A DNA stretch of 64,000 nucleotides, from positions 1 through 64,000 of the forward strand of contig CALVBP010000008.1 in assembly GCA_944325825.1 (NCBI GenBank), read 5' to 3'. The stretch is from Candidatus Gastranaerophilales bacterium (GTDB lineage Bacteria; Cyanobacteriota; Vampirovibrionia; Gastranaerophilales; Gastranaerophilaceae). Positions 29,806 through 53,866 of this stretch are shown piece after piece. Each line of letters starts with the position of its first letter. Within the stretch, counting starts at the first letter, position 1. The translations under genes were made by a program, and so were the position numbers. The notes beneath the pieces are model-generated. The model had not been told where the DNA came from. It did no database searches and saw only the letters and a list, made by a program, of their open reading frames with translations.

Positions 29806-30222
29806 ATGGGAGTTATCAACGAAAAATTTACTATCAACACAAAAGGTAATAACGATATTATTGATATAACAAAACATGTGCAGAATTGTGTTTACCAACA
29901 TGCATTGAAGGATGGTATTGTATGTGTTTCAGTGCAGGGAAGCACCTCTGCAATTACAACTATTGAATACGAAAACGGATTAATACAGGATTTGCAGGAA
30001 GCACTTGAAAGAATAGCCCCGACAGGACAGGAATATCATCATGACGAAATCTGGCACGACGGTAACGGCTATGCCCACGTAAGAGCTGCAATTGTCGGAA
30101 GTTCAGTAAATATTGCTCTTGTGGGAGGTCTGTTGAATCTCGGAACATGGCAGCAAGTTGTTCTGGTAGATTTTGATAACAAACCCCGTTCAAGAAACAT
30201 AACTGTACAAATTCTTTATTAG
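29806..30222 (+). CDS. YjbQ family protein (UPF0047)
   Basis: 138 residues with the invariant segments of the family: VQGSTSAITTIEYE near 46-59, EYHHDEIWHDGNGYAHVRAAIVGSS near 77-101 with clustered His and Asp residues, and the C-terminal GTWQQVVLVDFDNKPRSRNITVQIL. Members are sometimes annotated as 'secondary thiamine-phosphate synthase' because overexpression can rescue thiE mutants; the true role is unclear. AGGAG lies before the ATG. Part of the operon that starts with the purine phosphorylase. Confidence 0.9.
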   Translation: MGVINEKFTINTKGNNDIIDITKHVQNCVYQHALKDGIVCVSVQGSTSAITTIEYENGLIQDLQEALERIAPTGQEYHHDEIWHDGNGYAHVRAAIVGSSVNIALVGGLLNLGTWQQVVLVDFDNKPRSRNITVQILY

Positions 30223-30231
30223 CAGGGAACT

Positions 30232-30837
30232 ATGAAATATAAATGGCTTAATAAAAAGGAAAATACTGAGCTTATTATATTCTTTAACGGCTGGGGAATG
30301 GATGAAGCTGTTATAAAACATCTTAATTTTGAAAATTATGATGTTTTAATGTTTTATGATTACAATTTTCTTGAAACAGACTTTGATTTTTCTTCAATAA
30401 ATAACTATAAAAAGCACCTTGTAGCCTGGTCTATGGGAGTAATGACAGCAACCCTTTTTCCTGTTTCATATCTTTCCGCAACAGCTGTTAACGGAACATT
30501 AAAACCCATTGATAAGGATTTTGGAATAAATCCTAAAATATATGATTTAACGATAAAGGGATTTAATGAAAAAGGAGCTGAGAAATTTATACGGAACATG
30601 TTTGATACTCCGACGGACCTAAATATATCCAGAAGTTTGGAGAACCAGAAAAGCGAACTTTCAGCAATAAAAAATTATCAGGCTGATATGAATTTTAAAT
30701 ATACAAAAATTTTGATAAGCAACAATGATAAAATTATTCCGACAAAAAATCAGGAAAATTATTGGAATAAAAAAGCAGCCCTTAAAAGCGGACACTGCCC
30801 TTTCTTTTTATTTGAAAAATGGAGCGAGCTTCTGTAA
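30232..30837 (+). CDS. bioG: pimeloyl-ACP methyl ester esterase, BioG type
   Basis: 201 residues, DUF452 alpha/beta hydrolase. The nucleophile is S67 in VAWSMGV, H188 in SGHCPFFLFEKW is the likely catalytic His, and D near 163 in ISNNDKIIPTKN completes a triad; IFFNGWGMDE is the typical start. BioG removes the methyl ester from pimeloyl-ACP after BioC-primed fatty-acid elongation. bioC follows with a TAATG overlap, strongly supporting the assignment. AGGGA precedes the ATG. Confidence 0.9.
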   Translation: MKYKWLNKKENTELIIFFNGWGMDEAVIKHLNFENYDVLMFYDYNFLETDFDFSSINNYKKHLVAWSMGVMTATLFPVSYLSATAVNGTLKPIDKDFGINPKIYDLTIKGFNEKGAEKFIRNMFDTPTDLNISRSLENQKSELSAIKNYQADMNFKYTKILISNNDKIIPTKNQENYWNKKAALKSGHCPFFLFEKWSELL

Positions 30838-31562
30838 TGAATAAAGAACTTGTACAAAACCGCTTTAGTAAAATGCTTTCCAGCTATAATGAAAACGCAA
30901 AAATTCAAAAAAAAATGGCAGAAAGACTAATAAAATTTTTAACCGGTACAACTTTTGATAATATACTGGAAATTGGATGCGGAACAGGATTTTTAACGGG
31001 ATTAGCTAACGAGAAATTATGTTACAAAAATTATACGGCACTTGATATTGCAAGCGGTTGTGAAAAATATATAACCCAAATTAATCCTGAAATAAATTTC
31101 ATTAACTCTGATATTGAAAAATTTTTATTAACCGATAAAACAAAATACGACCTGATTTTATCAAATGCTGTTTTTCAATGGATTGAAGATTTTAAGAGCT
31201 TTATAGACAAACTCCTTTCAAGACTTAACTCCGGGGGAATTTTATTATTTTCTACATTCGGAAAGGAAAACTTCCGGGAGATATATCATATTTCACAAAA
31301 TTCACTTAAGTATTACTCTTCTTCTGAAATAAAAGAAATGTTTAAAGATTTTACACCGGTAACAGAAGAAGAAATTCATATAATGGCCTTTAAAACACCT
31401 AAAGATGTCCTCAGACATCTTCAACAAACCGGAGTCAATGCTATTGAATCAAAACAATGGACCAAAAAGAATCTTTTAGAATTTGAAAATAATTATATGA
31501 ATTTATGCAGCCAGAGACCAACCCTGACGTATAATCCTGTTTATGTCATAATACGCAAATAA
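30837..31562 (+). CDS. bioC: malonyl-ACP O-methyltransferase
   Basis: 241 residues; SAM-dependent methylation of malonyl-ACP starts pimeloyl synthesis for biotin. It opens MNKELVQNRFSKMLSSYNENAKIQ, the typical BioC N-terminus; SAM motif I is ILEIGCGTGFLTG at about 43-55, followed by LDIASGCEKYI and LILSNAVFQWIEDF. The start at 30837 overlaps the bioG stop (TAATG). The later biotin genes (bioF, A, D, B) are not in the window. Confidence 0.9.
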   Translation: MNKELVQNRFSKMLSSYNENAKIQKKMAERLIKFLTGTTFDNILEIGCGTGFLTGLANEKLCYKNYTALDIASGCEKYITQINPEINFINSDIEKFLLTDKTKYDLILSNAVFQWIEDFKSFIDKLLSRLNSGGILLFSTFGKENFREIYHISQNSLKYYSSSEIKEMFKDFTPVTEEEIHIMAFKTPKDVLRHLQQTGVNAIESKQWTKKNLLEFENNYMNLCSQRPTLTYNPVYVIIRK

Positions 31563-31657: not shown

Positions 31658-33154
31658 TTGGAAAGTATAAAAAATTCCGCCGTTGGTAAGCAAGATTCGA
31701 GTTCATATTACACGAATATTCTAAGTGTTCTTTTTAAAGACTGTCCGGACGGAATTGTTTTTAAAGATAAGGATTCTAAATACCTTGCAGCTAATGAAGC
31801 CTTTTTCAAGTTTTATAAAATAAAAAATCCTGAAGATTTAATAGGAGAAAAGAGTTGTAAGACTCTGTCAAAAGAAAATCTTAAACTTGTTTCCGAAGTA
31901 AATACAGCTGTTGAAGAAGAAAAACAGCCGATTAGCTATATTATGAATATAGAAAATGAAAAGGGTATACAAAAAATCTATAATATCACTACGACACCAA
32001 TTTTAGATAAACTTGAGTTTTTAGGTACAATCTCCATAGTCAAAGATGTAACTCATGAAGAAAGTGTCAAAGAGAGGTTCGTATTAAAACACTTTCAATT
32101 AAAATCACTGCTTGAAAATATCCCTATGCTTATTTATATGCAGGATAAAAATCTCAATTATATTGCAGGTACCAAGCCTTCATTTAATTTTGTAAATGAA
32201 GGTTACGATGCATTTTCAAATATACATATAGATAAAACCCAAAGTAGAATTGAAGATGAAGAAGAAAACAGATTTGTGCTTAAAAATAATAAAATTCTTG
32301 TAAAAGAAAAAGAAGTGATTGATTTTAAAGGTGCACCGCATTGGTACAAAATCTACAAAGTTCCGATAAACGATTTTAACAATGAAGTAACCGGAATAAT
32401 AACGCTTGCAAACAATATTGATGCAGAGAAGCAATTAAATACTCAGCGAGAGACCTTTGTTGCTTCACTCGGACATGACTTAAAAAATCCTACAATTGCA
32501 CAAATCAGAGGGCTTGAACTTTTACTAAAAGGTGAGTTCGGAGATATTTCCCTTTCCCAGAGAGAACTTGTTGAAATGGTACTTGATTCTTGCAGATATA
32601 TGAATGGGATGCTTTCTACACTGCTTGCAACATACAGAAATAATGAAGGACTGACAAAGCTTAATTACAGCGAATTTTCCCTCCCCGATTTGGTAATGGA
32701 ATGTGTTGCGGAGATGATTTATGTAGCAAAAGATAAAGAAGTAGGAATTTCAATAAAATCAACTATTAAGCCGGAAATAGTATGCGCAGACAGAGTTCAG
32801 ATAAAGCGAGTTATTATGAATCTCATCTCAAACGGAATAAAATATGCCTACAAAGGTACCGTACTAAAACTTTCTGTTTATAAAGATACAGGGAAAGCCT
32901 GTTTTGAATTTGAAAATAAAAGTCCATATATACCAGAAGATAAGCAAAAATCCATTTTTGCTCAGTATGTAACCTATGCTTCCGCGCATAAAGAACCTGG
33001 TATAGGTTTAGGTCTATATGCATCTAAAAAGATTATAGAAGCTCATAGAGGCAAAATATTTGTAAAAAGCTTTACTGATAATAAAAATATTTTTGGATTT
33101 AAAATCCCTTTTAAAATCAAAGCTGATTCTGGCAGCAAAAATGCCTGCTTCTAA
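31658..33154 (+). CDS. soluble PAS-domain sensor histidine kinase
   Basis: 498 residues, no transmembrane segment, so a cytosolic sensor. Two PAS folds (about 20-130, FKDCPDGIVFKDKDSKYLAANEAFFKFY; and 145-260, LLENIPMLIYMQDKNLNYIAG) precede a HisKA helix with the phospho-acceptor His near 271 (ASLGHDLKNP) and a HATPase_c domain (N box NLISNGIKYAYKG near 387; G box GIGLGLYASKKI near 449). The start is TTG at 31658, well supported by AGGAGA six bases upstream and by the absence of another start. No response regulator adjoins it. Signal unknown. Confidence 0.9.
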   Translation: MESIKNSAVGKQDSSSYYTNILSVLFKDCPDGIVFKDKDSKYLAANEAFFKFYKIKNPEDLIGEKSCKTLSKENLKLVSEVNTAVEEEKQPISYIMNIENEKGIQKIYNITTTPILDKLEFLGTISIVKDVTHEESVKERFVLKHFQLKSLLENIPMLIYMQDKNLNYIAGTKPSFNFVNEGYDAFSNIHIDKTQSRIEDEEENRFVLKNNKILVKEKEVIDFKGAPHWYKIYKVPINDFNNEVTGIITLANNIDAEKQLNTQRETFVASLGHDLKNPTIAQIRGLELLLKGEFGDISLSQRELVEMVLDSCRYMNGMLSTLLATYRNNEGLTKLNYSEFSLPDLVMECVAEMIYVAKDKEVGISIKSTIKPEIVCADRVQIKRVIMNLISNGIKYAYKGTVLKLSVYKDTGKACFEFENKSPYIPEDKQKSIFAQYVTYASAHKEPGIGLGLYASKKIIEAHRGKIFVKSFTDNKNIFGFKIPFKIKADSGSKNACF

Positions 33155-34629
33155 ACATTAACAGCATTCTTCTTAATAATTTCCAACAGCTCATTGACCA
33201 TAAGTTCTTCATATCTTTGAGCTGTCTCTTTATTATCTGCTTCAAACCGCAAAGTAAATACAGGCTCTGTATTACTTTGTCTTATAAGAGCAAACCCGCC
33301 GTTTTCAAAAACAATTCTCATTCCGTCAAGGGTTATAATATCTTTTATTTTTGAACCAAAGAAATTCGGATTATCTTTTACAACTTTCTCAAATGATTCA
33401 AGAGTAGTCTTTTTTAAAGAATTCGGGCAGGATAATCTTACTTCACTTGAAGAATATACTGAATTGAAAACTTCAAGCATATCAGAAATTTTGAAATTCG
33501 GATTGTATTTCTTTTTCTCTGCGAGTATTTCTATAATTCTGCATCCGGCATAAATTGCATCATCAAAGCCGTAATATCTGTCTTTAAAGAAAGTATGCCC
33601 GCTCATTTCACCTGCAAGAACAGCGCCGACTTCTTTCATTTTAGATTTAATATATCCGTGTCCGGTTTTACACATTACTGAGATACCGCCTAGTTTATCT
33701 ATCGTATCATAAAGCACCTGTGAACATTTTACTTCTGATACAATAAAAGGCTTAATGCCTTTGGCATTATAATCTTTTATAATTCCCTGAGCATAAATTA
33801 AAAGGAGTTTATCCCCTGTTAAAGAATTTCCTTCAGAATCTATTACTCCTATTCTGTCACTGTCACCGTCAAAAGCTATACCTAAATCGGCTTTGTTTTC
33901 AATAACAGATTTTTTTATATCATTAAGGGTTTTCTCATCACTCGGATTCGGATGATGATGCGGGAATCTTCCGTCCGGAACAGAATATAGTTCAATAACC
34001 TCACACCCCATAGCACGATATAATTTTGGTGCAACAACCCCGCCTGTTGCATTAGCGCTGTCTACTACAACTTTTATTCCTTCACCAATTCTTCCGAAAT
34101 TGTTCTTCATCGCTTCTATATAGTCAGGAATCAAATCATATTCTCTGTAAACACCTTTTGGAGAAGCCGGCATCTGTAAATTATATTCTTTCTCCGTGAA
34201 AGCCTTAACTTCTTGTATTTGTTCTTCATTGAGTGATTGTTTTGCATATGTCATTTTCAAGCCGTTATACTGGCTGGGATTATGGCTTGCAGTAATGATT
34301 AATGCTCCTGTTACCGGATTATAATTGGTTATAAAAGGAGGTAACCCTACCACCTCTGAATAATAACCCAGAGGAGTCGGAGCTAAACCTAAATCTACTG
34401 CATTCGCTCCGATTGATAATATACCTTCAATAAGTGCCTTGGAAAGTGCCGGTGAATGGAGCCTTGCATCACGACATACACTTATCCAAATATGACCGTA
34501 ATCATTACCTGTTTTTTCGGCAAGGTATTTAACAAAGCCCCTTCCTGTATAATAGAAAAGTTCCTCTGTAATGTTTTCTCCAAAGATTCCTCTTATATCA
34601 TTCTTTCCAAAAGCTGTTAAATCCAACAT
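33151..34629 (-). CDS. phosphomannomutase/phosphoglucomutase
   Basis: 492 residues; interconverts hexose 6- and 1-phosphates for sugar-nucleotide and glycan synthesis. The alpha-D-phosphohexomutase signatures are present: phosphoserine loop IITASHNPSQYNG near 105-117, metal loop DGDSDRIG near 255-262, sugar loop GEMSGHTFF near 340, and the phosphate-binding RQSNTEPVFTLRFE near 458. Length and motif types suit the ManB/AlgC class, so substrate breadth is likely. GGGAG precedes the ATG. It lies next to the surface-modification genes on the same strand and may feed them. Confidence 0.92.
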   Translation of the reverse strand: MLDLTAFGKNDIRGIFGENITEELFYYTGRGFVKYLAEKTGNDYGHIWISVCRDARLHSPALSKALIEGILSIGANAVDLGLAPTPLGYYSEVVGLPPFITNYNPVTGALIITASHNPSQYNGLKMTYAKQSLNEEQIQEVKAFTEKEYNLQMPASPKGVYREYDLIPDYIEAMKNNFGRIGEGIKVVVDSANATGGVVAPKLYRAMGCEVIELYSVPDGRFPHHHPNPSDEKTLNDIKKSVIENKADLGIAFDGDSDRIGVIDSEGNSLTGDKLLLIYAQGIIKDYNAKGIKPFIVSEVKCSQVLYDTIDKLGGISVMCKTGHGYIKSKMKEVGAVLAGEMSGHTFFKDRYYGFDDAIYAGCRIIEILAEKKKYNPNFKISDMLEVFNSVYSSSEVRLSCPNSLKKTTLESFEKVVKDNPNFFGSKIKDIITLDGMRIVFENGGFALIRQSNTEPVFTLRFEADNKETAQRYEELMVNELLEIIKKNAVNV

Positions 34630-34675: not shown

Positions 34676-36331
34676 TTATTGTACCCGAAAATGAGTTACT
34701 TCTTTAAACATATCCGGTGAATAATAATTATTATAGAATTTCTTATCTTCCAGCTCCTGCAAACTTGTTCCGAAAACATCGTTGATAAATACTCTAAAAA
34801 AATTAACTAAACTCTTTACCTTAGCTTTTTCAGCTCTATCCGGATTGTAGTACGCTAAAAAAGTATTAAAATAAATATTCAAAATATCTTTATCATCGGA
34901 GATGATTTTTTCCCCGTTATCAGAATATTTTCTTCTAATCCCATGATCGCCAAAAATCACAATAATCGGCTTATCAGAAGAAGATTTCCAAATACTGTCA
35001 ACTAAATCCAAAGTATATTTATTTGCATATTTTAAATACCCCAAATAAGATTTTGAGTTCAAAATATGCTTGCCGGAATAACTAAAGTCCGAAAGAGCCT
35101 GGCTTTGATTTGGGTTTCCGTTTTCATCATACAAATAAGGCTCGTGAGGCATCAAAAGATGCAAAAATATAAGTTTTTTCCCCTTAATTTTCAAAGTCTC
35201 TCCGATAAACCTATCTTTTCCCGAATCTTCCGGAAGTGCTTTTATGGAGATTAAATTCTCTAAAACAGAACCCTTTACAAACGCCGATAAAGAATTAAAA
35301 ACTACTACTTTGTCACTATTGTATATTTTGTAATAATACTCCGGTTTCAAATTCAATTGAGAAGGCCAGGAATTTAGGTAACATATTTTATATCCGTTTT
35401 TTCGCGCTAAATTAAACATAAGGCTTCTGTCTATTGAATCAGACGGTGTTGAAGCAGGGATATTTTCTATATAGTCCCCGTTTAAAACCGATGGAATTGA
35501 AAAAGTTGTCTTATTATAATTACTGCTAAAGTTTTCATGAACCTCAAAACCCCTTTCCTTTAAAGAGGTATAAAATTCTGAATTGTCAAAATTCAATGAA
35601 TCTAAAGTATCTTTTCCTGAGTACATATCAAGAAGTATAAAGTAAATATCTCTAACCGGAATCTTATCCGATTTTAGATTTATACTTTTTCCGAATTCAA
35701 AAAAACCTCCAAACCTATATTTAAATAAATCTGAAATTAAATTGAAACAAGAGAATATAAACAGTATAACAATAACTCTTTTGGAAAAGTCCAGAACTTT
35801 TGAAATATCAACGGTTTTGATTAATAAAGCCACACACAATACTGCTGCTATCAGAATATAATAATCAATATTTAAAATCTCAAAAACTTTTATCTGCGAA
35901 GCCGAAAACAGACTAAAATGCAAAAAGAATAAGAGGATTATTGAAATAAATATACTCACGTTTCTTTTTCGAATAAAAAATTTAAGTAAATAATAATACA
36001 GAAAAAATAAAGCAATCCCCGCAGTTAATACCGGTAAAAAAATATAAAAAGGGATTTCTCTAATATTATTAACGTATAAATATATAATCTTATAATTTGC
36101 CAGTAATGAAAATAAAAACATACTTATAATACTATATTTTCTATCTTCAAACTGTTTTTTTAATTTACATTTATATAATAAAAAAAACATTCCAAGAACA
36201 AATACAAGTTCTATGACCTTTAATAATATTGAAAACTTACCCGGGGCAAAATAGATATTTATTACCCCTGCAAAAATAACTATTTCAAAAAATATAAGAA
36301 AACTTATTATCAATTTCTTATGACCGGTCAT
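34676..36331 (-). CDS. membrane sulfatase-fold protein (phosphoryl/sulfo-transferase-like), copy 1
   Basis: 551 residues. Residues 1 to about 205 form five or more transmembrane helices; the C-terminal part is an alkaline-phosphatase/sulfatase-type domain facing the periplasm. Metal and active-site elements: ILLDMYSGKDTLD near 233, SSNYNKTTFSIPS near 268 (its Thr the likely nucleophile), HLLMPHEPYLYDENGN near 395 and IFGDHGIRRKY near 463. Similar architecture is found in lipoteichoic acid synthase and phosphoethanolamine transferases, so transfer of a phosphoryl-alcohol or removal of a sulfate on an envelope glycan is plausible. Paralogue of the next gene. Substrate unknown. Confidence 0.85.
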   Translation of the reverse strand: MTGHKKLIISFLIFFEIVIFAGVINIYFAPGKFSILLKVIELVFVLGMFFLLYKCKLKKQFEDRKYSIISMFLFSLLANYKIIYLYVNNIREIPFYIFLPVLTAGIALFFLYYYLLKFFIRKRNVSIFISIILLFFLHFSLFSASQIKVFEILNIDYYILIAAVLCVALLIKTVDISKVLDFSKRVIVILFIFSCFNLISDLFKYRFGGFFEFGKSINLKSDKIPVRDIYFILLDMYSGKDTLDSLNFDNSEFYTSLKERGFEVHENFSSNYNKTTFSIPSVLNGDYIENIPASTPSDSIDRSLMFNLARKNGYKICYLNSWPSQLNLKPEYYYKIYNSDKVVVFNSLSAFVKGSVLENLISIKALPEDSGKDRFIGETLKIKGKKLIFLHLLMPHEPYLYDENGNPNQSQALSDFSYSGKHILNSKSYLGYLKYANKYTLDLVDSIWKSSSDKPIIVIFGDHGIRRKYSDNGEKIISDDKDILNIYFNTFLAYYNPDRAEKAKVKSLVNFFRVFINDVFGTSLQELEDKKFYNNYYSPDMFKEVTHFRVQ

Positions 36332-36437
36332 ATATTTGCCTCAACTTTTAAAGTCTTTCCATTAAATACAATATTCTCCTGGTGTTTTGAGATTTTTCTT
36401 CCTTTTATATATAATACATAGAATAGCATAATACACC

Positions 36438-38117
36438 CTAGTGTAGCCATAATCCGCTAAGAGTATTGTAGTAAAAGAAAAAGCGTTTGTTTTCAAGTTC
36501 CGGATATGTTGTCCCAAAAATCTTATTTGAAAAATCTCTATAAAAATTTACAAGTGATTTATAATCTTTTTTAACCAATTTTTCATCCGGATTATAGTAC
36601 GCTAAAAAAGTATTAAATTGGTCTTCAATTACATTTGGTTCATTTTTTAGCTTATCAATGTGCTTTTGCTCATCACGGAAATAATATTTTCTTCTGATTC
36701 CATGGTCACCAAAAAGGATAATAACAGGTTCCTTTTCTTTTAAAGATATGATTTTATCCGCTAAATTTAAAATATATTTATTCGTATACTTAAGATATGA
36801 AATGTATGAATCCTTATTTAATTCCCTGCTGCCGTCAGGATTAATCCGGTCAAAAGACCCATTTATCTCGTTACCGTTTTCATCAAAATAATACGGCCAG
36901 TGAGGCATCATCAAATGAAAAAATACAAATTTTTTGTTTTTATTATCTTCAAGTGTTTTAGCTATAAAATCCTCTTTCCCGCCTGTAAATATAGGTGAAA
37001 AATATTTTCTTAAATTATAAAACATACTGCCAGAATACAAGCAAGAGAAGCTGTTATTGTACATAGCATCCATATCGGAATACAATTTGTAATAATATTT
37101 AGGATTCTGCTTAAGCCCTGAAAGTTCAGAATTCAAATAATATACCTTATATCCCGATTCCCTTGCCAGATAAAACATCAGACTTTTATCTACAGCTTCC
37201 GTTACATTGTCATACGGAACCTTATCGTAATAATTAAAATTAAATATTGAAACAAGAGTTCCCAAAGTTTTGTTATAATTGCTTGATATATCAGGATAAA
37301 CACTAAACCCTCTCCCTTGCAATTCTTCATAAAAGTTTGTATTATCAAATCCCAATTTATTCAGAGTTTTTTCGCCTGAATACATATCAAGCAAAATAAT
37401 ATAGATATCTCTATCATACTTTTTAGCCGGAACAAAAGCCGTCTGCCTTTCAATTCCTGAATAAGTTTGTTTGCAAAATATAGCATATTTAAATAACGCA
37501 GAAATTGCACTAAAAATTAATAATATAACAATTAAATTTTTTAAAAACTTAAACAACTTATCCATATTAAAAATAAAAGGCAATAATACAATTACACCCA
37601 GAATAGTAAATGCTGCCCAAATATCAACCAAGGCAAAATCTAATAAAGTTCCTGTTGTTGTTACAGATTTAAATTCAATACAGTAGAGCATAATATTAAA
37701 ACATAAACTGATAAAAAGCCCCCGCTGTTCGTTTTTAAAAAGAACTTTCAGTAGATAAAATAACAGCAAAAATATCGCAAGCCCTGCGGACAATGCGTAA
37801 ATAAAAAACACAAAACCGAATTCCGGTACATTAGAACAATAAACATGAATTACTTTATAATTTGCAAGCAGCCCGTATAATATAATTTCACCAAACTTAT
37901 AATGAGTTTCGCTCGGTTTACGTTGTTTAGAATTAATTATTTTGAAAATTGAAAAACACAAAAGGAAGAAAGAAAGTACTTCTGTAACTTTTAGTACCAA
38001 ACAAACATTTTTTCCTGCTATAATATCAAAACAACTGATATAGTTTAATGCAATATTAACTAAAAAAATTAACTCAATTAGTACTACAAAAAGAATCAAA
38101 TATTTTTTAAAATTCAT
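36438..38117 (-). CDS. membrane sulfatase-fold protein, copy 2
   Basis: 559 residues, same design as the gene at 34676 with conserved blocks in the same order: DIYIILLDMYSGEKTLN, SSNYNKTLGTLVS, HLMMPHWPYYFDENGN, LFGDHGIRRKY, and the C-terminal FGTTYPELENKRFF. The membrane half has diverged more than the catalytic half. The gene overlaps the methyltransferase fusion upstream by 11 bp and is about 106 bp from copy 1, so tandem duplication within an operon is likely. Divergence between the pair may mean different acceptors. Confidence 0.85.
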   Translation of the reverse strand: MNFKKYLILFVVLIELIFLVNIALNYISCFDIIAGKNVCLVLKVTEVLSFFLLCFSIFKIINSKQRKPSETHYKFGEIILYGLLANYKVIHVYCSNVPEFGFVFFIYALSAGLAIFLLLFYLLKVLFKNEQRGLFISLCFNIMLYCIEFKSVTTTGTLLDFALVDIWAAFTILGVIVLLPFIFNMDKLFKFLKNLIVILLIFSAISALFKYAIFCKQTYSGIERQTAFVPAKKYDRDIYIILLDMYSGEKTLNKLGFDNTNFYEELQGRGFSVYPDISSNYNKTLGTLVSIFNFNYYDKVPYDNVTEAVDKSLMFYLARESGYKVYYLNSELSGLKQNPKYYYKLYSDMDAMYNNSFSCLYSGSMFYNLRKYFSPIFTGGKEDFIAKTLEDNKNKKFVFFHLMMPHWPYYFDENGNEINGSFDRINPDGSRELNKDSYISYLKYTNKYILNLADKIISLKEKEPVIILFGDHGIRRKYYFRDEQKHIDKLKNEPNVIEDQFNTFLAYYNPDEKLVKKDYKSLVNFYRDFSNKIFGTTYPELENKRFFFYYNTLSGLWLH

Positions 38118-39489
38118 TACTCAAACACTCCATTAAATATAAAACTCTTTGAGTATCTTGAATTTTTTCTTTTCTTAGAATTTTATAATATTTTGCAAAA
38201 CTTCTTTCAAAACTTTCCGGAGAATAGTCGTTAAAAACATCTTTTCTGTTCAACAACATTTGCTGGACTTTAGAATCTTCTTTGCAAACATATTCTATTA
38301 TTAAATACTTTCCGTAAGAACTAAAAAATTCAGCCTGTTTTTCAAACGGAATGTTCCCGGTAATCCGCAGGTGATGAATAAGAGCCAGCGCTAAAACAAG
38401 ATTAACTCTGCCTGTTCTTGTTCTTAAATCTGTTCTCTCTTTATTTTCAAAACCTACATTAGGAGAAGGGTTAAAAATATCATAAACAAGCGGAATTATA
38501 TTTTTTTCATTATTTTGCTTTGCCTGCTGATAATTGTACTCAACAGCAGACTCGTCAATATCAAGGGAATATACCATTTTGGAACCGTTATTTCTTATAA
38601 CTCTGGAAAACATTCCGTTATTTGCACCAAAATCAATTACTGATTCAGGACTCAATTCTGCACAAAAACTTTTTATAAGTTCTTTTTTCTTTTCAAAACT
38701 TTCATCAGAATAATTTGTAAATGTGTAATATTCTCCCCACTCTGTTTCAGAAAGCGGCGGCTTTATTTCGTTCGTCACATTGTACAAATTATCTATAAAT
38801 ATTTTAAGCTGTTCTTTCGAAATCCTTTGCGCAGATATTTTTTTTCTGCTTTCTGAATATTTATTTTGGAATTTGGAATGCATATGTATGTGCATAAATA
38901 TCCCGGGATTAAAACGAGTTTTTATAGGCAGCAGTTTTGATGTCAAATCTAAGGGTATTCCATCCAGATTTGTCGTAATCAAATTCTTCAATCTAATGTC
39001 TACCTTAGACATCAGAAGTAAAACAGTGAGAAAATTTTCACAAAACTGCCTGTATGCACACCAGGGCTCACCTTCTTGATACTCTTCAAAAGAAGCGGTA
39101 TCAATTAAGACAGGCTTATTATCCTTGAATTGAATATTAAAGAAATTTGCATCTTTTAAAGTCATATTGTATTCAAGAGCAATTTTTTGTATCTCTAAAG
39201 TTGCAAGGGCAGCATCTTTAATTTGAGAAAAACACCACTCCCAGGGATAGCTGATAAATATTTTCTCCGGCTTGATTATAATACAATTCTCTGTTTTTTC
39301 AACTTCTTTATGAGGAATTAAAAGGTCTTTGTTTACCAGATGTTCATATAAACCTGAATCCATAAGTTTTGTATAATTATTCTTATAAGACTCAAAAATT
39401 TTTCGGTAAACTTCTTCTCCTTCTGTAAAAACCTGCGCATCAATATCTTTAAAAGAAGAAAACTCTGAAATACTATTTGTCAGAACCAT
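38107..39489 (-). CDS. kinase-like / SAM methyltransferase fusion protein
   Basis: 460 residues. The C-terminal half is a class I methyltransferase (VIDFGANNGMFSRVIRN near 275, LDIDESAVEYN, LVLALALIHHLRITGNIPF). The N-terminal half carries a small-molecule-kinase-like catalytic patch, LKDANFFNIQF...PVLIDTASF (D113, N118, D130; compare H-x-D-x-x-x-x-N ... I-D of aminoglycoside/LPS kinases), with IIKPEKIFIS as a possible nucleotide-lysine strand. Such proteins occur beside sulfatase-fold and DPGTGS genes, as here. I infer modification of an envelope glycan; neither activity is proven. Confidence 0.75.
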   Translation of the reverse strand: MVLTNSISEFSSFKDIDAQVFTEGEEVYRKIFESYKNNYTKLMDSGLYEHLVNKDLLIPHKEVEKTENCIIIKPEKIFISYPWEWCFSQIKDAALATLEIQKIALEYNMTLKDANFFNIQFKDNKPVLIDTASFEEYQEGEPWCAYRQFCENFLTVLLLMSKVDIRLKNLITTNLDGIPLDLTSKLLPIKTRFNPGIFMHIHMHSKFQNKYSESRKKISAQRISKEQLKIFIDNLYNVTNEIKPPLSETEWGEYYTFTNYSDESFEKKKELIKSFCAELSPESVIDFGANNGMFSRVIRNNGSKMVYSLDIDESAVEYNYQQAKQNNEKNIIPLVYDIFNPSPNVGFENKERTDLRTRTGRVNLVLALALIHHLRITGNIPFEKQAEFFSSYGKYLIIEYVCKEDSKVQQMLLNRKDVFNDYSPESFERSFAKYYKILRKEKIQDTQRVLYLMECLSNEF

Positions 39490-39691
39490 CCTTTTTATGA
39501 CCTTTAAATACTAAATCCTTGAATTTTTGAAACCAAGCTCGAAAAGTTATACCGAGCCCGAGAATAGAGGCTGCTATAATTTGAAGCACCATACTTCCGG
39601 TCCCCGGATCAATATACGCATAAACTGCAGCTGGGGCTATAATATTGAATATTATCAAAACTAACAAAATTTTATACAAATATTTTCTCAT
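39473..39691 (-). CDS. small membrane protein with IDPGTGS motif
   Basis: 72 residues: an N-terminal hydrophobic helix or signal (KILLVLIIFNIIAPAAVYA), then YIDPGTGSMVLQIIAASILGLGITF, then a basic tail (FKGHKKDGSDK). The (A/Y)YIDPGTGS-(M/L)-x-LQ motif defines a widespread tiny-protein family that neighbours surface-polysaccharide, sulfatase and methyltransferase genes. GGAG lies eight bases before the ATG; the end overlaps the fusion gene by 17 bp, making it the first gene of that operon. Molecular role unknown. Confidence 0.82.
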   Translation of the reverse strand: MRKYLYKILLVLIIFNIIAPAAVYAYIDPGTGSMVLQIIAASILGLGITFRAWFQKFKDLVFKGHKKDGSDK

Positions 39692-39809: not shown

Positions 39810-40658
39810 ATGAAAACAAACGGAAAACTTTTAAATTCATACGGGATTCTCTTTATCCTTCCGTCAATTGTTGGTACATTTATTTTTATTATAATACCGA
39901 TATTATGTTCATTCCTGCTGAGTTTTACTAATTGGGACTTATTAGGAAATATTACTTATGCCGGAATAAATAATTATAAAGAAATATTTATAGAACCGAT
40001 TTTTGTACAAATACTTATTAATACTGTTGTTTACGCCCTATCCGTTACTTTTTTTGCAGTAATTATTCCTCTTGCCACTGCAGCTGTAATAAACGAAAAA
40101 ATACGGGGAGCCGAGTGGTTTAAGACTATTTACTTCATTCCTTTTATAACACCTGCCGTTGTTATAGCAATAGTCTGGAGCTGGATTTTTGACCCTAATA
40201 TTGGAGGAGTAAATATACTTTTTCATACGCATTATACCTGGTTATTTGATACACAGCTAGCCATGCCGGTTCTTATTTTTGTTTCGGTCTGGAAACTTGT
40301 CGGATACAATGTAGTTTTATTTTTGACAGGATTTTCAACCATAAATCCCAATATTTATGAAGCCGCAAAAATTGACGGCGCCTGCGGAATAAACATATTC
40401 AAAAATATTACGCTTCCGCTTTTAAAACCGACACTGTACTTTGTAACTCTTGTGACAGCTATTTCATCATTTCAGGTATTTGATTTAATTTACGTTATGA
40501 CATCCGGAGGGCCTAAAGATTCTACAAATGTAATAGTTTATTCAATATACAAATACGCATTTGAATATTTTGATATCGGAAAATCATGCGCACTTGCGTA
40601 TATTCTATTTGCCGTCATTCTTGTACTTGCTCTATTACAAAGAAAGTTCAGCAAATAA
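39810..40658 (+). CDS. sugar ABC transporter permease (MalF/UgpA type)
   Basis: 282 residues, six transmembrane helices, with the ABC-permease EAA loop EAAKIDGACGINIFKNITLP near 190-209 that docks the ATPase. The start GILFILPSIVGTFIFIIIPILCSFLLSFTNW is typical of first permeases in CUT1 sugar importers. The second permease, ATPase and binding protein are not adjacent; a matching binding lipoprotein lies at 14535. It is a single gene convergent with aroA (24-bp overlap), with its own promoter. It probably works with components encoded elsewhere. Confidence 0.88.
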   Translation: MKTNGKLLNSYGILFILPSIVGTFIFIIIPILCSFLLSFTNWDLLGNITYAGINNYKEIFIEPIFVQILINTVVYALSVTFFAVIIPLATAAVINEKIRGAEWFKTIYFIPFITPAVVIAIVWSWIFDPNIGGVNILFHTHYTWLFDTQLAMPVLIFVSVWKLVGYNVVLFLTGFSTINPNIYEAAKIDGACGINIFKNITLPLLKPTLYFVTLVTAISSFQVFDLIYVMTSGGPKDSTNVIVYSIYKYAFEYFDIGKSCALAYILFAVILVLALLQRKFSK

Positions 40659-44986: not shown

Positions 44987-45889
44987 TTACATAAATATAT
45001 CATAAAAATGATAAAATTGATAAGGGGCTATTTGGACCATTTTTTCGAGGAAATTTGTAAAGTTTTTCTGTAACACATTTGCAGAATTGTCCGACTGTTC
45101 TTCCAGATATACATCATATTTATGTTTATTTCTTATACAACTTATAAAATATGTTTTATAGTTTAAAATTTCTGCAAGTTTAAATGTTCCCACGGGCAAA
45201 TGTATTCTTTTATTCATAAAATCTGCTTCTATGCACCTATCAGGGTTATTGGAAGCAATCCTATCCCCGGCAATAAAAGCAATACCTCCGTCTTTTAAAT
45301 TATCGTCCAGTTCAGAAATTGTTGTTACGTCGAATTCTTCTATTGGATAAATTCTTAGATTTTCTTTTTTTGTTTCAAGAGAATTTATAAAGTTATTGAA
45401 AGTTTTACAGTGTTCTTTTTGCAGAAAGACAGAAACCGTACTCGGTCGTGAATGATTGTAATCCGAAAGAAAGGCTTTCATTATATCAATATTTCCTATA
45501 TGGTTACAAATAAAGAGCAATCCTTCTTTATCTTTCATTTGATTAAAAAATTTTTGACCGGCTTCTTCCTCTGGAAAACAAATATCATCAACATTATACG
45601 TTCCGGCAAAAGCCTCCATTTTATAAACAAGAGATTCCGCATAAGATAACACATGCCGTAATGAATTCAGAAAGGAAGGTTTATATTTTTTTTCACCCGT
45701 ATAAGAATATAGAGCCTCAAAATATTTACCGGAATATGTTCTTAAATCCCGATTTGTTAAAAGAGTTATAAGAGTAACAAAAAAAGCTATTAATAATAAA
45801 ACTCTTGTCCCTAATACTTTATAAAGATACCAGGAAATTAATAATCTTTTTTCACCTGCAGATTTTTCTTTAATATTAAACCATTCCAT
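44987..45889 (-). CDS. LpxL/HtrB-type acyltransferase of the aryl-polyene cluster
   Basis: 300 residues with a transmembrane start (LLLIAFFVTLITLL near 31-44) and a lysophospholipid-acyltransferase domain. The catalytic H-x4-D is H130-IGNI-D135 in LFICNHIGNIDIMK; GGIAFIAGDRI near 206-216 and FMNKRIHLPVGTFKLAEI near 225-242 match the substrate pocket of late lipid A acyltransferases. Proteobacterial aryl-polyene clusters carry this domain fused to a glycosyltransferase (ApeJ); here only the acyltransferase half exists. Likely joins the polyene to a lipid carrier. Overlaps the methyltransferase gene by 14 bp. Confidence 0.82.
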   Translation of the reverse strand: MEWFNIKEKSAGEKRLLISWYLYKVLGTRVLLLIAFFVTLITLLTNRDLRTYSGKYFEALYSYTGEKKYKPSFLNSLRHVLSYAESLVYKMEAFAGTYNVDDICFPEEEAGQKFFNQMKDKEGLLFICNHIGNIDIMKAFLSDYNHSRPSTVSVFLQKEHCKTFNNFINSLETKKENLRIYPIEEFDVTTISELDDNLKDGGIAFIAGDRIASNNPDRCIEADFMNKRIHLPVGTFKLAEILNYKTYFISCIRNKHKYDVYLEEQSDNSANVLQKNFTNFLEKMVQIAPYQFYHFYDIFM

Positions 45890-46937
45890 TTTTTCCGCAT
45901 TCCAATAATGTGTAATCGAACGGCCCGATATTATTATATACTCTTACAAGTTTCAGCCCGGCATTATTAATAAGCTCAACCATTTCATTCTGCTCATACA
46001 TCTTGCTGACCCCGTTTGCCATACAGGTAAAATATAATGAAATATGCACCAGTGCATATTTTGCCGCATCAAAAACCTGATTGTCCGTAAAAGGTTCCAG
46101 AATAAAAATTCGAGAAACATTATCCATGTTATTTTTAAGGTCGGTTAATATTTTAAGTATTTGTTCTTTTGAAAAACAATCCAGAAACTGGCTCATTAAA
46201 ATCGCACAATTATTCATCTTCGGATAAACTACATTATTATCAAGCACATTGACCGGATAAAAGTTACATCCGTTCAACGACGGCTCATTTAATCTTGCCG
46301 AGATGTTTTCTTTCAAATCCAGCATAGTAATATCAATATCGGGATTTTTAAGACAGATTTTTTCAAATTTACCTGTATTTCCGCCTATATCAAAAATTTT
46401 CTTAAAATCAGAAGAAATTATTTCAAAAACCTTATCAAAACAATTATCCGAATACAGGTTATCAAACTTGTACCAGCTTGACCTCGCAGGTTCCGGTAAT
46501 TTCGGCACCAGAGGATAAATTGTCTCTTCTTTATTAGAAATAAACTTCTTTAATCCTTCCGGTTTTTTATTAATAAAAGATTGAGTTAACTCACTCGCCC
46601 CAAGATAGCAGATATCTTTTACAAAATTAAAATTTGCAATAGTCATATCATCATATAAAAAAGCTTCACCTTTTGGAGTAAGCTTATATTTTCCGTCATC
46701 ATATTCTACTATATCAATTACTTCTGCTACTTGAATCAAAGTTTTTACCGTATAGCTGTCAAGATTGAGTTTTGATGCTATATCAGCTAAACTTGAAGGA
46801 TTTTTATTTAAAAATTTTAATATGTTTAAATCCAGCATTGCCGAAATCGTCTGAAAACTAAGAGGGGCAAAAGCAAGTTCCTGCGCCTTTGAAAGAGCGG
46901 TTATTCTGGTTTGTTTACGTTCACTATTCTTTTTCAT
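45876..46937 (-). CDS. O-methyltransferase-like enzyme of the aryl-polyene cluster
   Basis: 353 residues. Residues about 15-100 are a winged-helix dimerisation domain (LAFAPLSFQTISAMLDLNILKFL, SLADIASKLNLDSYTVKTLIQ, KYKLTPKGEAFLYDD), as in caffeate/hydroxyneurosporene O-methyltransferases. The SAM site is FDIGGNTGKFEKI near 181-193, MLDLKENIS, then ILMSQFLDCFS near 236. In aryl polyenes such an enzyme methylates the aryl head or hydroxyl group. No Shine-Dalgarno: tgaTATAAT ends six bases before the ATG, inside the 19-bp gap after the exporter gene, so it may also have its own leaderless transcript. Confidence 0.82.
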   Translation of the reverse strand: MKKNSERKQTRITALSKAQELAFAPLSFQTISAMLDLNILKFLNKNPSSLADIASKLNLDSYTVKTLIQVAEVIDIVEYDDGKYKLTPKGEAFLYDDMTIANFNFVKDICYLGASELTQSFINKKPEGLKKFISNKEETIYPLVPKLPEPARSSWYKFDNLYSDNCFDKVFEIISSDFKKIFDIGGNTGKFEKICLKNPDIDITMLDLKENISARLNEPSLNGCNFYPVNVLDNNVVYPKMNNCAILMSQFLDCFSKEQILKILTDLKNNMDNVSRIFILEPFTDNQVFDAAKYALVHISLYFTCMANGVSKMYEQNEMVELINNAGLKLVRVYNNIGPFDYTLLECGKNGMV

Positions 46938-46956
46938 AAAAAGATTATATCATATA

Positions 46957-49062
46957 TTATTCTCTGTCTGTAAAAACTTTAATCAAAATATAATTAAATA
47001 TAACCCCCAGAGAAGTTGTAAGAGCAAGAGTACTAATAAGTTTAAATGTTGTAAAAGACAAAAGCAGGAAGGAAAGTGCTGTCGTGATACAGGCGAGAAA
47101 AATTGCTGTCTCATTTTTAACAAGATTCTTCCTTCCAAAAATAGAATAATCTACAGTAAAACCGAGCGCTAACAACAGTCCCAGAAGATTAAAGAGATTT
47201 AAATCTATCCCAATAAGGCTTACAAATGCAATAACAAAGACCGATGAAATCAATAACGGCAGAAACATTTTCAGAGCTTGTTTATATCCGTATGATAAAA
47301 CCAGAATAAAGTACAATAAAAAATATATAACAGGAAGTATTTTTAAAAATCCGATTCTATATTCTCTTAAGTATTTAGATACTGTCCCCTGAAAATCAAC
47401 AATTTCAATATTTTTATTAACCTCCGGAATAAAATCCGAAAATGAAATAATAATTGAAGTATTATTATTCAACAATAAATCTTTAAAGAAAGAGAAATCC
47501 TCTATTTCTATACCTTGTGGTTTGTAAACTTCATTTATAAGCAGGTTTATTTGTTTATCAGATAAAATCCCTTTATAGTCTTTCAAATTATTCTCATACA
47601 ATAATTTTGTCAAAGTTTCATTCTCTTCCTGACGTTTAATTGACGGAATAAACTTTGATATACAAAGATAATTTATCCCTTTTTTATCAAGTAATGATGT
47701 CACAGACTCTTCATTCTCAAGAATTTTTTGTAAGGATTCGCCTTTTACAGCTAATATTACACTTTTTCCCCCTTCCAGATTCGAGATTTTATTAAAAAGT
47801 TTTTCTGCCTTTAATAAATTTTTTGCCGGAGTATAAAGAGAGGTCAAAGAATCATCAAAGTTTACTTTTAACAATCCTGTAATTATGCTGAAAATCACAA
47901 AAATTATTACTGATATTTTAATTTTTTTATTAAATTGAAACTTAAAAAAACGAACCGATTTTGGAAATTTTATGCATGGATAAATTGTTAATATAAAAAT
48001 ATATATAGCCGCTAAGCCGGCATTTGTAAACGTAGCAATTTGATTCAGTATATCAATTTTTAAGAAATACAGCAGAGAAAATGCCATCATTGTCGATAAA
48101 AGACTCAATGTTAAATCCTTAACAAAACTTTTATCAAAGTTTTCCGAAAAAATATAGTGATATGAATAATCAATACCTATACCGATAAGTGTTGTTCCGA
48201 AGAGGAACGTTATTATATGAAATGTGCTAAATATCGTTTTTGATATCGCAAAACCGGCAAGAAAACCAAACGCTATGTTTAGTGCTATAGGGAGGAGTAT
48301 TTTAAAGCTCCTGAAATAATAATAAGTCAAAAATATAATTAAAACCGTAATTAAAAAGCAGATTATATTTATGGATACAGAACTTGAAATACTCGTCTGA
48401 TATGTATGTACCGGTGTACCTGCAAGATATATATTATTTTTACCATCGGAATATTTGTTCTTGAGCTTTATAAGATTAGCTATAGCCGGACTCTGCATAT
48501 CTTGAGCGGCATTTAGTTTAAAAATTTCACTATCATAATATTTTCCGTCTATATAATAATTTTTGCTTCCGAGATTATTTGATAACAGAAAATCCGTCAG
48601 CAATAAAAAAGGATCTTTACTTACTTCAACCAATGGAATTCCTGCCGGATTATAAAGTCTTGCCAGACTCTGCTCATAAACCGCATTGTAATTTTTCTCT
48701 AATAAAAGCGCCCTTGTCTGCGGAGAAATAAAATTGACCGGAGAGTTGCTATACCAATCTAATAACCGTAAAAAATCTAAATTTGCCGGCAAAAAGTTTT
48801 TTTTATCAACCTCATCTACAAAATTTTGTTTTAATTCTTCCAGACTATTTTCATCATCAGATTCAAATATAACTTTTACAGATTTAGACTGCATGTCAGC
48901 AACGTCAATTATTCTGCTATTTTTGACAATATTTTCCGGAAGAATTGACTTTGCAAGATTTGTTTCAATCCCGCCAAAATTTCTTAACAGCAATATGAGA
49001 AATATAGCCGTTAAAATCGTTATAAAAAATATTCTTAATACCGTTATTCTATTGAAAACCAT
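46957..49062 (-). CDS. MMPL/RND-type exporter of the aryl-polyene cluster
   Basis: 701 residues, twelve-helix RND layout: TM1 near the N-terminus, a periplasmic loop (about 30-225), a helix block (about 228-370, ITVLIIFLTYYYF; IGIGIDYSYHYIF with the conserved GxDY), a second loop and a second helix block (about 555-700, LLLALGFTVDYSIF with the D-Y again). It should move the finished polyene lipid across the inner membrane. Corresponds to the exporter next to the LolA gene in known clusters (ApeM, as I recall). It overlaps the LolA-like gene by 19 bp, which implies translational coupling. Confidence 0.87.
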   Translation of the reverse strand: MVFNRITVLRIFFITILTAIFLILLLRNFGGIETNLAKSILPENIVKNSRIIDVADMQSKSVKVIFESDDENSLEELKQNFVDEVDKKNFLPANLDFLRLLDWYSNSPVNFISPQTRALLLEKNYNAVYEQSLARLYNPAGIPLVEVSKDPFLLLTDFLLSNNLGSKNYYIDGKYYDSEIFKLNAAQDMQSPAIANLIKLKNKYSDGKNNIYLAGTPVHTYQTSISSSVSINIICFLITVLIIFLTYYYFRSFKILLPIALNIAFGFLAGFAISKTIFSTFHIITFLFGTTLIGIGIDYSYHYIFSENFDKSFVKDLTLSLLSTMMAFSLLYFLKIDILNQIATFTNAGLAAIYIFILTIYPCIKFPKSVRFFKFQFNKKIKISVIIFVIFSIITGLLKVNFDDSLTSLYTPAKNLLKAEKLFNKISNLEGGKSVILAVKGESLQKILENEESVTSLLDKKGINYLCISKFIPSIKRQEENETLTKLLYENNLKDYKGILSDKQINLLINEVYKPQGIEIEDFSFFKDLLLNNNTSIIISFSDFIPEVNKNIEIVDFQGTVSKYLREYRIGFLKILPVIYFLLYFILVLSYGYKQALKMFLPLLISSVFVIAFVSLIGIDLNLFNLLGLLLALGFTVDYSIFGRKNLVKNETAIFLACITTALSFLLLSFTTFKLISTLALTTSLGVIFNYILIKVFTDRE

Positions 49063-49565
49063 TGAGTTGTTTTACTTCCGTCTTTCAGAGATATCACTAT
49101 TTTGTTTATATAATCAATTCCTTCGATTGTTATGGAATCAATATATTTATCCAACCCGCTTTTTACCTTGGGTTTTAATCCCAATGCCCAAGTATTGCCT
49201 GTTTTTTTGTAATAAAAGTCAAACGTATTGTCCAGTTTTGCATATTTTTTGTTTGAAATTGCAAGGATTATATCATTAATTTGTTCACAATCTTTATTCG
49301 TGTATGATGTTGTAATCCTGACAGGATAGGTTGTTTCAAAGAAAATACCCTGCTTTTTATCAAACCTGAAATTACCGCCGGAAACCAAAGGTTTATCAAT
49401 ATTTTTCAGAATCTTCTCCTGTTTAAATTTACATTCAATATTATTGAATTCCGGCAAGACTCCGGTCAAATCTTTCGCCGTAGTTTTATTTTCATATAAA
49501 GATGCACGACATGTTAGTATTGTCATAAACAAACAAATAAATAAATATATCAATTTATTTTTCAT
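49044..49565 (-). CDS. LolA-like periplasmic lipid carrier of the cluster
   Basis: 173 residues with a signal peptide (MKNKLIYLFICLFMTILTCRA, cleavage near 21). The mature part has the LolA half-barrel feel: FNNIECKFKQEKILKNIDKPLVSGGNFRFDKKQGIFFETTYPV (compare F-x-Q-x-x-L...L-x-x-P-x-x-S-G-x-L-x-F) and ALGLKPKVKSGLDKYIDSITIEG. Probably ferries the polyene lipid from the MMPL protein to the outer membrane. Counterpart of the LolA-like gene between thioesterase and exporter in classical clusters. Overlaps the thioesterase by 11 bp. Confidence 0.82.
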   Translation of the reverse strand: MKNKLIYLFICLFMTILTCRASLYENKTTAKDLTGVLPEFNNIECKFKQEKILKNIDKPLVSGGNFRFDKKQGIFFETTYPVRITTSYTNKDCEQINDIILAISNKKYAKLDNTFDFYYKKTGNTWALGLKPKVKSGLDKYIDSITIEGIDYINKIVISLKDGSKTTQWFSIE

Positions 49566-49968
49566 TATAAATACCTAATGTTTGTAATAATTTTTCAGGA
49601 GCATTATAAACACTTTCTCCTGTTTTGATATTGATACCTATTTGCATAGATTCTGCTTCAAAAACAATATCTACACCATTAAAAATTTTATATTTAATTA
49701 TAATAGCAGGCTCTATTTCAATAAGAGAGGTTTTAATCAAAATCTTCTGATTAAAACTTAGCGGTTTCACATATTTCATACTCATTTTAGCTATAGGATA
49801 AATGTAATTATCATCTTTCATATCATAATAGGTGTATCCTATTTTATCAAACATATCACAGCGAGACTGTTCCAGATATTTTACATAATTCCCATGCCAG
49901 ACGACATTCATCGGATCAAGGTCATGAAACGGGACTTTTATCTCTAATTCCGATTCAAATAAACTCAT
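49555..49968 (-). CDS. hot-dog thioesterase (4-hydroxybenzoyl-CoA thioesterase type)
   Basis: 137 residues. The family signature F-x-D-x-D-x-x-x-x-V-x-(W/H)-x-N-Y-x-x-Y is F14-HDLDPMNVVWHGNYVKYLEQSR with D18 the likely catalytic acid and H25 beside it. Single hot-dog fold, no signal peptide. In aryl-polyene clusters the thioesterase (ApeK) edits or releases acyl thioesters. The start overlaps the ligase stop by four bases and GAAGGAG is present upstream. Confidence 0.85.
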   Translation of the reverse strand: MSLFESELEIKVPFHDLDPMNVVWHGNYVKYLEQSRCDMFDKIGYTYYDMKDDNYIYPIAKMSMKYVKPLSFNQKILIKTSLIEIEPAIIIKYKIFNGVDIVFEAESMQIGINIKTGESVYNAPEKLLQTLGIYNEK

Positions 49969-51572: not shown

Positions 51573-51964
51573 TACAGATTATGCCTCTTTCTGAAAATAA
51601 TTCTTACAATATATTCTATTATAAATATAGTACCGACCAAAAAATAAGAGAAAAAACAGTTATAAAACATCCATACTGTATCATTCAGAAAAATCGTTAT
51701 AACCGATACAACAAAATTAAGGAACAAAAATACACACCACACATAAGTAAGTTTTTTTGTATACTCAAGCTCAAGGGGATGAAGATTTTTACTCCACATT
51801 CTTGCAAATTTTTGTATAATAGTTTCTCGGGTAAATAAAGAACTGAAAAAAATTAAAAATATTGTAAAATTCATTACCGGAGGGTAAAAACGTATTACAA
51901 AAAACCTTTTAAAATAAAAGAGTACAAATAAACATATCGTAAATATAAAAGGTAAAAATCTCAT
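51572..51964 (-). CDS. small integral membrane protein of the aryl-polyene cluster
   Basis: 130 residues, four hydrophobic stretches (FIFTICLFVLFYF; MNFTIFLIFFSSLF; VWCVFLFLNFVVSVITIFL; YFLVGTIFIIEYIV) and the RETIIQKFARMW element between the second and third. Size, topology and position between ACP and ligase match the COG4648-type membrane protein of other clusters (ApeG). Its role is unknown; it may anchor the synthase at the membrane. No Shine-Dalgarno; starts one base after the ACP stop, so translation is probably coupled. Confidence 0.8.
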   Translation of the reverse strand: MRFLPFIFTICLFVLFYFKRFFVIRFYPPVMNFTIFLIFFSSLFTRETIIQKFARMWSKNLHPLELEYTKKLTYVWCVFLFLNFVVSVITIFLNDTVWMFYNCFFSYFLVGTIFIIEYIVRIIFRKRHNL

Positions 51965-51965
51965 C

Positions 51966-52467: not shown

Positions 52468-52496
52468 AATAAAATCCTAACATACTAAATCTTTTT

Positions 52497-53836: not shown

Positions 53837-53866
53837 GCTAATATTATAGTATAAACAGGAAATGAT
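53837..53866. promoter_or_regulatory. 30-bp divergent promoter of the two aryl-polyene operons
   Basis: Only 30 bp separate the two start codons. On the minus strand TATAAT (plus 53843-53848) ends six bases before the ATG of the chain-length factor. On the plus strand tatagt-like boxes overlap the same bases and AGGA precedes the KS start at 53867. Both operons must share this segment, so they are likely co-regulated. Confidence 0.6.

Follow-up and report, generated by a model that had tools for sequence, protein, structure and literature searches.

A NoeA/NoeB-type gene module with a conserved DPGTGS microprotein in Gastranaerophilales, possibly serving two-sided glycan decoration

Introduction

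Described relatives of the locus analyzed here come from plant symbiosis. There, noeA and noeB have figured as host-range nodulation genes since 1995, and truncation of noeA goes together with an inability to nodulate 17 of 27 Medicago truncatula genotypes (PMC4053727). Here we describe an operon at positions 34676 to 39691 of a 64,000-nucleotide stretch of DNA (the window; contig CALVBP010000008.1, positions 1 to 64,000) from a Candidatus Gastranaerophilales bacterium (assembly GCA_944325825.1). It encodes a NoeA homologue, a microprotein with the motif DPGTGS, and two membrane proteins of the alkaline phosphatase (AP) fold. The window genome, of the Gastranaerophilales type, is 1.85 Mb in 57 contigs and 95% complete.

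Two further systems bear on this locus. The Lani_1194 family of Legionella anisa, with about two thousand homologues, combines a kinase-like N-domain, in which Arg (R38) replaces the catalytic Lys, with a C-terminal methyltransferase (PMC9758233). Its genomic neighbors include Lani_1193 (in 65%) and Lani_1195 (in 38%), the latter an AP-fold homologue of NoeB (PMC9758233, 2022). WbdD, the Escherichia coli O9a chain terminator, is arranged as methyltransferase, kinase, and coiled coil and caps its glycan with phosphate and then methyl (PMC3482155).

Results

Gene content and likeness to nodL-noeA-noeB

The operon comprises four genes on the minus strand. The first, an open reading frame (ORF) without a family in Pfam or NCBIfam searches, encodes the DPGTGS microprotein (72 amino acids [aa]; 39473-39691). 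It is followed by the NoeA-type kinase-like/methyltransferase fusion (460 aa; 38107-39489), identified by Pfam, NoeA homology, and an AlphaFold model, and then by AP-fold copy 2 (559 aa; 36438-38117), assigned by Pfam PF00884, motifs, and a tree, and AP-fold copy 1 (551 aa; 34676-36331), assigned by PF00884, motifs, and structure searches. The microprotein and fusion genes overlap by 17 bp (39473-39489) and the fusion and copy 2 genes by 11 bp (38107-38117), in agreement with the placement given in a first-pass annotation of the same DNA. Copy 1, the last gene, lies near copy 2 without overlap, across a gap of 106 bp. With a GC content of 0.295 (0.341 for the window), the operon is AT-rich and falls toward the bottom of the range seen in the window. 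Genome-wide, this module type is represented by a single microprotein, a single fusion, and two AP-fold genes.

Judged by sequence, the fusion is homologous to NoeA over its full length and belongs to the NoeA/Lani_1194 family. It matched Sinorhizobium NoeA with 31% identity over 97% coverage (E 9e-65 by tblastn against plasmids; E 7e-79 by BLASTP). The plasmid search returned 65 records, 61 of them from Sinorhizobium, Rhizobium, or Ensifer and several annotated as noeA; the top matches (42-45%) were from a deltaproteobacterium, Singulisphaera, and Gemmatirosa.

The likeness to the Sinorhizobium meliloti nodL-noeA-noeB operon includes the neighbors of noeA. On pSymA (CP140953.1), a 71-aa ORF containing AYLDPGTGSM lies between nodL and noeA (L037:4748-4963) and overlaps noeA by 23 bp, and the AP-fold protein NoeB is encoded after noeA. 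A DPGTGS query found this ORF in noeA-bearing Sinorhizobium/Rhizobium/Ensifer plasmids (~61), where it is usually "hypothetical" or unannotated in the table used. T-x-x-S-x-P and GDHG motifs are common to NoeB and AP-fold copy 1; the overall similarity of the AP-fold proteins to NoeB is only distant (24% over 125 residues, with an E value of 3e-6 for a single comparison). Unlike the S. meliloti operon, the window operon lacks nodL, has two AP-fold genes instead of one, and belongs to a gut bacterium of the Gastranaerophilales type.

With the Lani_1194 family, the locus shares the domain order, the active-site pattern (equivalents of protein kinase A D166, N171, and D184, with Arg for K72), and an AP-fold neighbor on the same strand. 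The first-pass annotation had proposed a possible undescribed decoration pathway. Decoration remains a sensible function, but the pathway is not undescribed, as the family and its neighborhood were published in 2022 (PMC9758233).

Conservation of the gene set

Forty family loci with a full fusion were compared, 39 of which are distinct (L082 and L021 are one contig). The microprotein gene was directly upstream of the fusion gene in 39 of the 40; in the exception, L086, 40 bp of contig are left. An AP-fold gene was adjacent in 38, downstream of the fusion in 35 and upstream in L094, L098, and L103. The two loci without an adjacent AP-fold gene were L022, whose contig ends 664 bp downstream, and L101, which has none. 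Almost every family homologue had the order microprotein, fusion, AP-fold, mostly with overlapping or near-overlapping ends, and the frequent overlap of the microprotein and fusion ends suggests translational coupling. The set was also found in Alphaproteobacteria, a deltaproteobacterium, Planctomycetota, and Gemmatimonadota; its recurrence in these groups and in ~39 distinct loci is well beyond chance. Joint conservation of the neighbors in other genomes, one of two points on which the first-pass proposal had been made to depend, therefore holds. The first-pass annotation also stated that DPGTGS and sulfatase-fold genes co-occur in other bacteria; in most of the 40 loci, both are adjacent to the fusion gene.

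The neighborhoods themselves varied. Among distant homologues in genomes of the cyanobacterial phylum, the fusion gene directly follows Wzm and Wzt (with Wzt_C) in two loci (L036 and L112) and lies beside family 2 glycosyltransferases in two others (L110 and L111). In a subclade from genus g124 (L105 to L108), the fusion gene is the immediate successor of a UPF0047 gene and has neither a microprotein gene nor an AP-fold gene with it. The window, too, codes for a UPF0047-like protein (29806-30222).

The module is bordered by two genes outside it, both assigned by Pfam: a phosphoglucomutase/phosphomannomutase gene (33151-34629, minus strand) and a sugar-type ATP-binding cassette (ABC) permease gene (39810-40658, plus strand). 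In 19 congeners these two genes are directly adjacent, without the operon. The congener search found the operon between them only in the window and in G776, to which G479 (locus L021), of the same genus as the window genome, is added. This pattern, which is new here, means that the operon was gained or lost as one block. Two close relatives were returned by a scan of genome contigs with a single query sequence.

The DPGTGS microprotein and a second architecture

The microprotein sequence contains ...AYIDPGTGSMVLQ..., and its layout is a hydrophobic N terminus ending in A-x-A, then Y-I-D-P-G-T-G-S, another hydrophobic segment, and a basic C terminus. By direct reading, the DPGTGS motif occupies residues 28 to 33 (39593-39610, minus strand). 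A25, Y26, P29, and Q37 were invariant in 19 members, and the variants YLDPGSGS and YIDPAAGS occur beside the fusion in Singulisphaera and Gemmatirosa. A literature search for "DPGTGS" matched only an unrelated paper. All 13 free-standing microproteins among 244 genomes of the phylum were in fusion-bearing genomes (Fisher p 8e-20, a value that ignores relatedness). New here is that the NoeA/NoeB-type module has a fixed third component, the microprotein.

A second architecture is likewise new. In five genomes of the phylum sample that are without this operon, the DPGTGS module forms the N terminus of a 426- to 455-aa protein (the ORF is broken in L139). With the gene next to it, this protein is encoded at L136:4289-8337, L137:3586-7610, L138:4138-8129, L139:4306-8283, and L140:4435-8273. 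The C-terminal part of these proteins is a PF04464 CDP-glycerol glycerophosphotransferase (E 1.3e-8 and 3.8e-12 in the two tested). The next gene in all five encodes an 851- to 914-aa protein with a YidC/60KD_IMP domain and an AP-fold domain; three were tested with Pfam, the AP part falling below the cutoff in one, and the other two are homologous over their length. A CTP_transf_like gene lies near the locus in L136 (8881-9318). Because PF04464 enzymes draw on CDP-glycerol in the cytosol, this arrangement places the C terminus of the DPGTGS module inside the cell and ties the module to phospho-decoration. Common to both architectures are a DPGTGS module, a cytosolic group-transfer enzyme, and a membrane AP-fold enzyme. 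The shared layout favors, without proving, a role for the DPGTGS module in phospho-decoration, as an anchor or a coupling element.

The kinase-like/methyltransferase fusion

The AlphaFold model of the fusion had a mean predicted local distance difference test score (pLDDT) of 92.9 and a predicted template modeling score of 0.93. Its two parts are a kinase-like N-domain (residues 1-245; 38755-39489, minus strand), recognized from conservation and from viral kinase matches to the model, and a class I S-adenosylmethionine (SAM) methyltransferase C-domain (residues ~262-455; 38125-38706, minus strand), recognized by Pfam and structure matches. R29, D113, N118, and D130 (minus-strand codons 39403-39405, 39151-39153, 39136-39138, and 39100-39102) were invariant in 21 of 21 fusion homologues. 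In a wider set of 40, R29, N118, and D130 were again invariant, and D113 was at least 90% conserved. The SAM loop reads D286-G288-N290-G292, and Pfam placed methyltransferase families over residues ~270-432, with PF13489 above cutoff. The kinase-like Asp-Asn-Asp pattern named in the first-pass annotation holds across nearly the whole family, and the SAM site named there is present in the window protein.

The methyltransferase half matched many SAM methyltransferases in the PDB, with tied values (Z 17-18). NodS and the phosphate methyltransferases MePCE/BCDIN3D were among the top rows, and WbdD was also matched, the Z values again being tied; WbdD structure 4ax8 aligned to this domain with a Z of 16.8. 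WbdD shares the pairing of kinase-like and methyltransferase domains. In contrast to WbdD, the window fusion has the kinase-like domain first and ends at residue 460 without a coiled-coil tail, and the opposite domain order rules out membership of the fusion in the WbdD family.

The kinase fold of the N-domain was the other point on which the first-pass proposal had been made to depend. Viral Ser/Thr kinases matched the N-half of the whole-fusion model with a Foldseek probability of 1.00 (E 1.3e-5 to 5.4e-5), and on the basis of this model the domain is kinase-like, in accord with the conserved key residues and with the published description of the family (PMC9758233). Sequence methods gave a fainter signal. 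A profile search of the domain against PDB sequences returned no match, and Pfam matches were weak and scattered (APH in 2 of 37 members, E 0.001). Comparisons by hhalign with one Ser/Thr kinase and one APH protein were not significant, although the Ser/Thr kinase motif was in the correct register at a weak score. When a cyanobacterial family was searched with PF06293 (Kdo/WaaP), no close relative came up, the inspected matches being Ser/Thr kinases, and a phage collection held no match to the fusion. In PDB searches with the whole fusion, methyltransferases took up the match lists, which left the N-domain barely tested.

Two observations on fusion homologues stand apart. A giant virus may encode a NoeA-like kinase-methyltransferase, as suggested by a 409-aa protein of Mimivirus LCMiAC01 (BFVD A0A481Z196) that matched nearly the whole fusion model (E 1.7e-18, TM-score 0.72 by target). 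Separately, some homologous fusions contain in-frame stops, five in G442 (G442:C79:1948-3333) and one in G069 (G069:C60:8843-9751); in a few genomes, therefore, the gene seems to be undergoing decay.

The AP-fold membrane proteins

As had been noticed from the sequence at first reading, the operon encodes two membrane proteins of the sulfatase fold: both matched Pfam Sulfatase PF00884 above cutoff (40.2 and 39.7 bits), and they are paralogous, with 39% identity. The nearest relative has a single AP-fold gene, to which copy 1 is orthologous (84%). Copy 2, in which the nucleophile and metal-site motifs are kept, pairs with copy 1 in the tree (support 100/98) on a long branch and is therefore a diverged tandem paralogue. 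Copy 1 has membrane helices within residues 1 to 210 and a periplasmic-type AP domain from about residue 225. In this domain T275, at the nucleophile position in the motif SNYNKT (codon 35507-35509, minus strand), was invariant in 32 of 32 proteins, and D235, H391, H396, D462, and H463 were conserved, the last two forming the metal-binding motif GDHG (codons 34943-34948, minus strand). From the EptA and LtaS families, we take the Thr to be the nucleophile and the Asp-His residues to bind metal.

The AlphaFold model of the AP-fold protein had a mean pLDDT of 80.4. Foldseek placed ICR, MCR-1, EptC, and LtaP first, with sulfatases interleaved, and VIA-align gave Z scores of 19 to 21 for PbgA/YejM, EptC, and MCR and of 18 to 19 for sulfatases. 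In the comparison with phosphoethanolamine transferases that the first-pass annotation had proposed, these enzymes, lipoteichoic acid synthases, and PbgA thus ranked closest. The window proteins share with EptA/EptC/MCR and LtaS/LtaP the AP fold, a membrane anchor with a periplasmic domain, the Thr nucleophile position, and the Asp-His metal motif; they differ in sequence (8-17% identity), and Pfam searches at E of ≤1 recovered PF00884 but no EptA-type N-terminal domain. The AP-fold proteins most resemble the EptA/MCR/LtaS-type transferases and PbgA, and sequence separates these from sulfatases better than structure does. An ordinary formylglycine sulfatase was rejected: the [C/S]-x-P-x-R motif is absent, and the corresponding sites, NKTTFSIPSV in copy 1 and NKTLGTLVSI in copy 2, have no Arg.

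Other features of the window

Two further regions of the window were inspected by eye. An aryl-polyene/fatty-acid-type cluster appears to span 44987-57389, with an acyltransferase, two small acyl-carrier-like proteins, and ketosynthase-like, reductase-like, and large exporter-like proteins; the acyltransferase at 44987, the sole member of this run checked with Pfam, gave a marginal match. At 30232-31562, two overlapping genes resemble bioG and bioC (pimeloyl-acyl carrier protein [ACP] esterase and malonyl-ACP methyltransferase).

Discussion

These results strongly suggest membrane-associated phosphoryl/methyl decoration of an exported glycan. That the locus is, as a whole, a NoeA/NoeB-type, membrane-associated module acting on a glycan from both sides of the membrane is a proposition we hold at about even weight. 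The argument for glycan decoration combines NoeA/NoeB genetics, the polysaccharide genes near family loci, the similarity of the AP-fold proteins to transferases, and the glycerophosphotransferase fusion. These lines lead us to infer a topology, formation of a complex, a glycan as substrate, and a chemistry for each step. At the inner membrane, a lipid-linked or precursor glycan would be phosphorylated by the kinase-like domain and/or methylated by the SAM domain of the cytosolic fusion. The microprotein would be membrane-spanning, its DPGTGS segment facing outward and its basic tail facing the cytosol, and may keep the fusion at the membrane beside the AP-fold protein. With their periplasmic catalytic domain and Thr nucleophile, the AP-fold proteins would then transfer or remodel a phospho-substituent on the exported glycan.

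A broader proposal, which we put forward tentatively, is that the DPGTGS microprotein is a general, unrecognized membrane adaptor. In systems of two-sided glycan decoration, it would link a group-transfer enzyme in the cytosol with an AP-fold enzyme in the membrane. It would be the missing third component of NoeA/NoeB and would occur again at the N terminus of CDP-glycerol glycerophosphotransferase-type proteins that have YidC-AP-fold partners.

Several findings weigh against two-sided decoration. The L105 to L108 subclade keeps the fusion without its partners, suggesting that the fusion can work alone. No Wzt_C domain was detected in the 95% complete window genome, so O-antigen capping of the WbdD type is not directly indicated here. 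The similarity of the AP-fold proteins to sulfatase structures nearly equals that to transferases. A literature search found no biochemistry for NoeA, NoeB, or the microprotein. In addition, the catalytic Lys of the kinase-like domain is replaced by Arg (R29), and the 2022 study identified no ion-pair Glu in the kinase-like domain of Lani_1194 (PMC9758233); kinase activity is therefore not assured.

This last point is the basis of a rather unlikely alternative, in which the domain is a pseudokinase or uses ATP in a different reaction, such as AMPylation; the fusion would then amount to a methyltransferase to which a regulatory or substrate-binding domain is attached. The Arg shared with Lani_1194 (R38), the missing Glu, and the weak link to kinases in sequence profiles are in its favor, but the catalytic Asp, the Asn, and the metal-binding Asp are kept nearly throughout the family, whereas pseudokinases usually lose them.

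Thr nucleophiles are also seen among AP-superfamily diesterases, and the AP-fold proteins might instead be periplasmic phosphodiesterases or phosphatases that, after export, trim a methyl-phosphate-type cap added by the fusion in the cytosol. WbdD sets the precedent for such capping (PMC3482155), and the fusion follows Wzt in two loci of the cyanobacterial phylum. We consider this cap-and-uncap scheme unlikely given that the nearest AP structures by Foldseek are transferases and lipoteichoic acid synthases and that the window genome is without Wzt_C.

It is less probable still that the module modifies a secreted signal or protein, such as a Nod-factor-like signal or an effector-like substrate, rather than an envelope glycan. 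The host-range role of noeA and noeB, the nodulation failure tied to truncated noeA (PMC4053727), and the prediction that Lani_1194 is an effector (PMC9758233) would fit such a substrate. However, the family is spread over nonsymbiotic, free-living, and gut bacteria, polysaccharide export genes lie nearby in genomes of the cyanobacterial phylum, and membrane AP-fold partners suit envelope work. Chance clustering of unrelated genes is refuted by the adjacency counts (39 of 40 loci for the microprotein, 38 of 40 for the AP-fold gene), the confinement of all 13 free-standing microproteins to fusion genomes, and the presence or absence of the block at one site.

For two-sided glycan decoration by a NoeA/NoeB-type module, the second architecture, a DPGTGS-glycerophosphotransferase with a YidC-AP-fold partner, points to phospho-decoration of glycans. 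The classic noeA-noeB operon itself holds a third conserved gene that is mostly unannotated. The biochemistry of NoeA and NoeB has apparently been without assignment since 1995, and the comparison made here offers points that are testable in a tractable plant symbiont.

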